Positions 7,732 to 8,345 of a stretch of 64,000 nucleotides of DNA are shown here, one piece after another; position 1 is the first letter of the stretch; the number at the start of each line of letters is the position of its first letter. Both the position numbers and the translations under genes were made by a program. The DNA lies in contig NZ_JACXXN010000003.1 in assembly GCF_014904695.1 (NCBI RefSeq), forward strand, positions 62,001 to 126,000. Reading direction: 5' to 3'. The notes below the pieces were generated by a model. That model saw only the letters and a program-made list of their open reading frames with translations, did no database searches and was not told the DNA's origin. The DNA comes from Nostoc sp. MG11 (lineage in GTDB: Bacteria > Cyanobacteriota > Cyanobacteriia > Cyanobacteriales > Nostocaceae).

Positions 7732-8226
7732 TTAAAATCTCAAGCCAACACCACCCTGTACGGAAACAGCTGCACCACCGCTGTCACGATAAGCATCAAA
7801 AGCAATGATAGCGTTGCCAAAAATCACAGTATTACTATTTGGGACAACGTAATCAACTCCCGGCTGTAAGGCAAAACTAATTTTGTCGCCCACAGGAGAA
7901 GAGTTACCACCACCAGCCAACACCAACCCAGCTCCTAAGTAGGCATCTGTATGCCAGTTAAGAGGGAGGTCATAAGAAACCGTTGGTACAATTGCTGTAT
8001 TTTGTCCTATTAAAGCTTGGGCGCGGAAAGAAATTGGTGCTTCCAGCAGCTTGTAGCGGGCTGCTACAACTCCGCCCAATTGGATACCGTCAGTAATACC
8101 AACAGTCGGCCCTATACCAACATAACTCCCGTATGCTACTTGAGCCTGTGCTGCTTGATTGCTAATAGCCAGATTCAACATCAAGCTAGCTCCCACAACT
8201 GAAACCCAACAAGGAAAATATTTCAT
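7732..8226 (-). CDS. Predicted small outer-membrane beta-barrel protein
   Basis: A 164-residue exported protein. Residues 1-29 form a signal peptide (basic MKYF, hydrophobic core, cleavage after NQAAQA). The mature part alternates short polar and hydrophobic strands rich in G, A, V and Y and ends in GVGLRF; a terminal phenylalanine is usual for outer-membrane barrels. The ATG at 8226 is chosen because GAGGAG stands 7 bases upstream; the longer frame would need a TTG at 8268 and would put polar residues before the signal peptide. No family name recognised. The ribosome-binding site overlaps an 11-base perfect complement of the Yfr1 small-RNA core, so translation is probably riboregulated. Confidence 0.7.
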   Translation of the reverse strand: MKYFPCWVSVVGASLMLNLAISNQAAQAQVAYGSYVGIGPTVGITDGIQLGGVVAARYKLLEAPISFRAQALIGQNTAIVPTVSYDLPLNWHTDAYLGAGLVLAGGGNSSPVGDKISFALQPGVDYVVPNSNTVIFGNAIIAFDAYRDSGGAAVSVQGGVGLRF

Positions 8227-8232
8227 TACCCT

Positions 8233-8243
8233 ACTCCTCACAC
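8233..8243 (-). promoter_or_regulatory. Putative Yfr1 small-RNA target site over the RBS
   Basis: The mRNA of the outer-membrane gene reads GUGUGAGGAGU here, the exact complement of ACUCCUCACAC, the conserved single-stranded core of the cyanobacterial small RNA Yfr1. The site covers the GAGGAG ribosome-binding site. In Prochlorococcus, Yfr1 is reported to pair with leaders of outer-membrane protein mRNAs. The match is seen; the regulation is inferred. Confidence 0.6.
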
Positions 8244-8269
8244 CATTTTTGATTTTTTCATTTGTCAAG

Positions 8270-8345
8270 GGTCAAAGGTCAAGAGTCAGTAATTTATTCC
8301 CCTTGTGCTCCCCTGCTCCCCTACTCCCCTACTCCCCACCTCATT
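8270..8345. repeat. Heptamer and pyrimidine-rich spacer repeat
   Basis: GTCAAGG/GTCAAAG/GTCAAGA heptamers are followed by several units of CTCCCCTGCTCCCCTAC type. The same two-part pattern occurs at 41345-41425, and the C-rich part in reverse forms the linker of ModBC at 26026-26121. Confidence 0.6.

Follow-up and report, generated by a model that had tools for sequence, protein, structure and literature searches.

A small barrel gene and the Yfr1-complementary site in its leader

The window, a stretch of 64,000 nucleotides from a contig of Nostoc sp. MG11 (NZ_JACXXN010000003.1), carried on its minus strand a gene for a small protein, in whose leader a site complementary to the small RNA Yfr1 overlapped a Shine-Dalgarno-like sequence and a two-codon frame (Table 1).

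Table 1. Features of the barrel gene and its leader, with coordinates given as positions in the window.
Feature	Coordinates	Strand	Remarks
164-aa ORF	7732..8226	minus	Signal-like N-terminus; predicted eight-stranded outer-membrane beta-barrel; terminal F
Yfr1-complementary site UGGUGUGAGGAGU	8233..8245	minus	13 contiguous Watson-Crick pairs, -19 to -7 before the AUG
Shine-Dalgarno-like GAGGAG, within the pairing site	8234..8239	minus	Read from the sequence
AUG-GUG-UGA, two-codon frame overlapping the Yfr1 site	8238..8246	minus	Intact in 42/86 distinct near-homologue leaders

No Pfam or NCBIfam family was found for the 164-residue protein (the Pfam scan used the sequence minus its first residue), and a PDB sequence search returned nothing better than E = 0.34. 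Modelling with AlphaFold2 on a 41-sequence alignment yielded, in the best model, an N-terminal helix and eight strands (pLDDT 84.5, pTM 0.72); three of the five models had a pLDDT above 80, while two were poor (65.5 and 37.1). The best PDB matches of the model in Foldseek were the OmpA, NspA and OmpX barrels (E = 4.3e-5, 1.1e-4 and 1.9e-4, respectively), with TM-scores of 0.50-0.58 by query length and identities of 14-16%. The protein is therefore predicted to share the eight-stranded fold of OmpA, NspA and OmpX, whereas no sequence relation to them was detectable. Together with the signal-like N-terminus and the terminal phenylalanine, both recognized by inspection, the model and its matches agreed with the earlier description of the product as a small beta-barrel, for which a location in the outer membrane would be expected.

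The 19 bases 5' of the barrel-gene AUG on the minus strand were UGGUGUGAGGAGUAGGGUA. An earlier note on this DNA had placed in the leader an 11-mer that pairs with the whole Yfr1 core and covers the ribosome-binding site. The 11-mer, GTGTGAGGAGT, was found at 8243-8233 of the minus strand, with the AUG beginning at 8226; the interval first given for it (8226-8243) extends from the A of the start codon to the first base of the 11-mer. Its eleven complementary bases were correct but understated the complement, as TGGTGTGAGGAGT (8245-8233) is complementary over 13 contiguous bases to the linker ACUCCUCACACCA of the Yfr1 encoded in the same genome (L001). The Shine-Dalgarno-like GAGGAG (8239-8234) falls inside this 13-base run, and the likely ribosome-binding site is thus covered, as had been proposed.

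Two other features were observed in the vicinity of the site. Across 84 near-homologue leaders, each of the bases GGGU at -5 to -2 (8228-8231) was retained in 62-92% of cases, a conservation that Yfr1 pairing does not explain. Upstream of the site (8246-8290 in the window), short direct repeats (e.g. CCCAATG, GACAAAT) were seen by eye in several relatives (L021-L037), which suggests sequence turnover near the pairing site.

Yfr1 and Yfr2 genes in the genome

A yfr1 gene was sought in the genome of the barrel gene and was found at L001 1479-1543, where the covariance model RF01116 scored 61.8 bits against a gathering cut-off of 38. The match (C108:23015) included both hairpins and the linker ACUCCUCACACCACACUCC, and contained an intact core, ACUCCUCACAC, which is the perfectly conserved 11-mer of Yfr1 according to the available part of PMC2190773. 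The gene was flanked by a GuaB3-family IMP-dehydrogenase-related gene and a thioredoxin gene, both above their NCBIfam cut-offs, an order that fits the guaB-yfr1-trxA synteny described in the same part of that paper (PMC2190773) and, with the score, identifies the locus as Yfr1. The linker CCUCACACCACACUCC (L001 1504-1519) is also a perfect 16-base mirror palindrome.

At the level of the host family, RF01116 was above the cut-off in 205 of 208 genomes. Of the 30 Yfr1 loci examined, 29 had an unaltered core and in the remaining one it was not located by the search pattern; CACAUUCC replaced CACACUCC in five of the 30.

Concerning Yfr2, the model used was RF01701 (Cyano-1), on the basis of the available part of PMC8400943, in which the Yfr2 family is described by the Cyano-1 motif. 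Another model, RF01117, was discarded, as it turned out to be a different family. Four Cyano-1 matches were obtained in this genome, a tandem of three on C98 and a single match, below the cut-off, on C161, and all four carried the Yfr1-complementary string GUGUGAGGAG.

Rarity and ranking of the match within the genome

When up to one mismatch to the 11-mer was allowed, the window contained one match (the exact one) for 0.69 expected, a count that is uninformative by itself. Genome-wide, the 11-mer occurred five times, about the expected number according to an arithmetic estimate, and no excess was seen either for GTGTGAGG with an ATG 4-16 bases downstream (21 sites vs 26 for the reversed pattern). 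Genomic rarity is therefore not the argument for the site. The 12-mer ACTCCTCACACC was present at two places in the 8.41 Mb genome, namely yfr1 (C108:23015) and, as its complement, the barrel leader. What sets this match apart from chance is its position and its conservation combined.

The pairing potential with the Yfr1 linker was compared across 347 ORF leaders from the window and a further 400 kb of the genome, in which ORFs were called by a home-made procedure. Based on raw duplex energy, the barrel leader ranked second (-24.8 kcal/mol), behind a gene at L246:16169 (-33.3 kcal/mol) assigned to murC (NCBIfam TIGR01082). Based on accessibility-corrected energy, in which a simplified, crude IntaRNA-like model subtracts the opening cost of both RNAs, the order was reversed, the barrel leader being predicted first (-21.7 kcal/mol) and murC second (-8.4 kcal/mol). 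The pairing is thus predicted to remain favourable after opening costs, relative to the 347 sampled leaders, and the IntaRNA-type comparison over leaders that had been put forward for this gene, even in this crude form, placed it at the top. The corrected energy of murC includes a charge of 16.8 kcal/mol for opening Yfr1, which we read as a sign that this simple method carries the predicted pairing on into the Yfr1 terminator stem. As murC is one of the eleven validated Yfr1 targets of Nostoc PCC 7120 in the available text of PMC6974561, the ranking recovered a known target unprompted.

In the murC leader itself (L246:16137-16168), GGTGTGGTGTGGTGT stands before AAGAGGAG, matching the distal Yfr1 linker and the core. 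GTGTGGTG was present in all 30 host-family murC loci, and the full 15-mer in 12 of them.

Conservation of the site in relatives

Homologues of the barrel protein, including paralogue-level matches, were found in 214 of 217 host-family genomes and, in a sample of 388 genomes of the class, in 224. Near-homologue loci were the best-scoring loci, with at least 73.8% identity, and represent fewer than all of the 214 genomes with a match. The leaders of 110 such loci (30 from host-family genomes and 80 named ones taken regardless of family, the two sets overlapping) gave 86 distinct 40-base leaders. The class background consisted of 326 leaders from 20 other genomes of the class.

A run of at least 10 bases complementary to the Yfr1 linker was present in 61 of the 86 near-homologue leaders, compared to 1 of 326 in the class background; within this genome's own background it was present in 2 of 347 leaders, the barrel gene counted. 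Runs of at least 11 bases were found in 56 of the 86 distinct leaders vs 1 of the 347 sampled leaders of this genome, and runs of at least 13 bases in 32 of the 86. The 13-base motif matched the near-homologue leaders with a mean of 11.8 of 13 positions, the best mean of 500 permutations being 9.98. When 84 distinct leaders were profiled relative to the start codon, the most informative stretch was -20 to -9, with GGUGU, directly 5' of GAGGAG, kept at 68-87% per position. The A-rich stretch from -30 to -21 was intermediate (0.12 to 0.93 bits), and nine of the ten positions from -40 to -31 carried less than 0.3 bits.

Outside the host family, 49 of the 50 fetched loci were used (L219 was left out, its start not being found), with starts picked automatically, a few of which look wrong. 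In this set, a run of at least 8 bases was present in 26 of 49 homologue leaders vs 3 of 326 in the background, and UGAGGAGU lay no more than 30 bases before the start in 21 of 49 vs 0 of 326. The Yfr1 site is therefore conserved in orthologues both inside and outside the host family, with exceptions. Among the objections to which the earlier note had exposed its reading of the leader, a genome devoid of yfr1 and poor conservation of the 11-mer in orthologous leaders were examined, and the reading survived both.

The exceptions were of several kinds. In terms of energy, 69 of 91 near-homologue leaders beat the 5th percentile of the background and 22 fell short. The site was seemingly lost in L095 and L103, such leaders being few. 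Ten distinct near-homologue leaders possessed UGUCAGGAG, in which one pair would be broken mid-site (Anabaena, 4; Dolichospermum, 2; Cylindrospermum, Cuspidothrix, Sphaerospermopsis and Richelia, 1 each). In the stretch read upstream of the starts of two paralogues in this genome (L139 and L140; 37-38% identical), no Yfr1 site was seen by eye.

As conservation near a start may have other causes, control genes were inspected over the same positions. Mean information from -19 to -7 was 1.12 bits for the barrel gene, 1.03 bits for the RDD/pentapeptide neighbour and 1.28 bits for trxA. Leader conservation alone was accordingly rejected as evidence, these two genes being about equally conserved near the start, and only the identity of the kept bases counts. 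Runs complementary to the Yfr1 linker did not exceed 6 bases in 54 of the 55 distinct leaders of the RDD/pentapeptide neighbour (9 in the other one) or 7 bases in any of the 27 distinct trxA leaders, while the longest run was 9-10 in all 28 murC leaders (three of which do not end at ATG, at least two of these being mis-anchored). With the reversed and the sense Yfr1 linker, the longest run was at most 6 across the 86 near-homologue leaders. A further control, the linker read as its complement (at least 10 in 58 of 86), was set aside, since the mirror-palindromic nature of CCUCACACCACACUCC makes it invalid as a null.

Proposed regulation and alternative explanations

We consider it likely, and hold this with good confidence, that the leader is a Yfr1 target, in which pairing would block the 30S subunit and lower the barrel protein, and Yfr2 would relieve the block. 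The single-stranded Yfr1 linker, located between the two hairpins, would pair with 13 bases of the mRNA, including the Shine-Dalgarno-like sequence, and thereby prevent 30S binding at the barrel start; less of the small outer-membrane beta-barrel would then be synthesized. Repression is the expected sign, since the site covers the likely ribosome-binding site, and the barrel gene very probably belongs with the other envelope genes that Yfr1 switches down. The Yfr2-type RNAs of the same genome, through GUGUGAGGAG, would compete for Yfr1 and probably relieve its block on the barrel gene, for example under nitrogen limitation.

The same bases could instead have been kept as a strong, spacing-constrained ribosome-binding site, the Yfr1 match being a by-product of the anti-Shine-Dalgarno-like character of the Yfr1 core. 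GAGGAG is indeed Shine-Dalgarno-like, the deepest out-of-family conservation, that of UGAGGAGU (21/49, -30 to -1), overlaps it, and start-proximal conservation is also seen in the leaders of other genes. This explanation nevertheless appears improbable, as GAGGAG is rare among leaders (7/347 in this genome and 5/326 in the class background) and GAGGAGU rarer still (1/347, the barrel gene itself, and 1/326). Moreover, the conserved stretch extends 5' of GAGGAG into GGUGU, and the final U of GAGGAGU has a partner in Yfr1 but none in the anti-Shine-Dalgarno sequence of the 16S tail. The position of the validated target murC, first or second of 347 in the same ranking, also argues for Yfr1 rather than the ribosome as the source of the match.

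Two further explanations were judged very unlikely, to a similar degree. The site might be used mainly by another small RNA with the same motif, of the Yfr10 type, given that Yfr10 of Prochlorococcus MED4 contains the motif of Yfr1 and that the targets of the two RNAs overlap (available part of PMC6778093). In the genome studied here, however, a search with the full 12-mer ACTCCTCACACC retrieved yfr1 and the barrel-leader complement only. Alternatively, barrel translation might be governed by the AUG-GUG-UGA frame, which terminates on the Shine-Dalgarno sequence and is present in the window and in the near-homologue leaders counted in Table 1. Against this, the base preceding UGGUGUGA varies (A in 42, U in 10, G in 1 and C in 1 of 54), so that the AUG is conserved less well than the complement to Yfr1, and out-of-family leaders retain UGAGGAGU in 21 of 49 cases but GUGUGAGG in only one of 49. 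The overlap of this frame with the Yfr1 site is probably incidental.

Other candidate targets and relation to known Yfr1 systems

Among the 21 sites with GTGTGAGG then ATG, eight precede an ORF of at least 50 codons, including the barrel gene. The others were two OprB/SLH porins, a PGA_cap gene, a radical-SAM gene and three further frames, one amidohydrolase-like, one of 234 codons with no Pfam match and one a GTG frame of 52 codons. In the PGA_cap (capsule synthesis) gene (L120; G000:C98:4707-4725), GTGTGAGGAGT starts 16 bases before the ATG, making this gene another candidate Yfr1 target as far as its sequence indicates. GTGTGAGGA also stands just before the start of both OprB/SLH porin genes (L123 and L132, the latter also matching the NCBIfam iron-uptake porin), in keeping with the targeting of porins by Yfr1.

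In Nostoc sp. PCC 7120, the targets of Yfr1 given in the available text of PMC6974561 include murC, mraY, alr0834, alr4550, alr2269 and others, and 10 of the 11 fusions tested in E. coli reporters were repressed by Nostoc Yfr1. Most of the predicted sites fall where translation begins, whereas that of the one activated target lies far upstream; for murC and mraY, the authors favoured translational interference, and Nostoc Yfr2 was reported to rise under nitrogen deprivation (same part of PMC6974561). In Prochlorococcus MED4, Yfr1 controls the porins PMM1119 and PMM1121, a PMM1121 reporter being repressed in E. coli, and Yfr2 counteracts Yfr1 in a reporter (available part of PMC6778093). Control by Yfr1, which the earlier note had described for outer-membrane protein mRNAs of Prochlorococcus, is thus not confined to that genus, control of envelope genes having already been demonstrated in a heterocyst-forming Nostoc (PMC6974561, in the part available); Yfr1 control of outer-membrane and cell-wall mRNAs in heterocyst formers is already published.

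The barrel leader resembles these PCC 7120 targets, as described in the available text, by the same core, by a site in the initiation region, as for most of them, by the envelope function of the genes and by the heterocyst-forming relatives concerned. It differs from murC (run of 9-10 in the 28 leaders above) by a run of 13 contiguous bases, and from the targets described in that portion of PMC6974561 in that it precedes a gene for a small, predicted eight-stranded barrel. With PMM1119 and PMM1121 of MED4 it shares the same small RNA acting, here by proposal, at an outer-membrane-type mRNA (available part of PMC6778093), but those genes encode porins, whereas the barrel is small and its lineage distant. 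Finally, the leader carries the same Yfr1-complementary string as Yfr2 (Rfam Cyano-1) and in this respect resembles a Yfr2 bait, its contiguous pairing being three bases longer (13 vs 10 pairs); unlike Yfr2, a non-coding Yfr1 antagonist, it is an mRNA translation start.

A small eight-stranded barrel is not mentioned in the available text of PMC6974561, whose Table S1/CopraRNA list may already hold an orthologue, and among the titles listed for the Yfr1 literature none names a small-barrel target. The barrel gene would therefore be new to the known Yfr1 regulon, unless Table S1 of PMC6974561 already lists an orthologue. A bolder proposal, which we regard as rather doubtful, is that the barrel is among the oldest and strongest cyanobacterial Yfr1 targets, that the complement predates the split of the orders and that the need to silence this gene partly explains the invariant undecamer.

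Nearly all cyanobacteria possess Yfr1, with a core described as perfectly conserved, and yet different functions have been reported for it in Prochlorococcus and in Nostoc. As its site is widespread in near relatives and shorter in other families, the barrel gene could serve as a common test gene for the role of Yfr1. As a Yfr1 target, it would tie a small barrel of unassigned function to envelope control and, via Yfr2, to nitrogen status.
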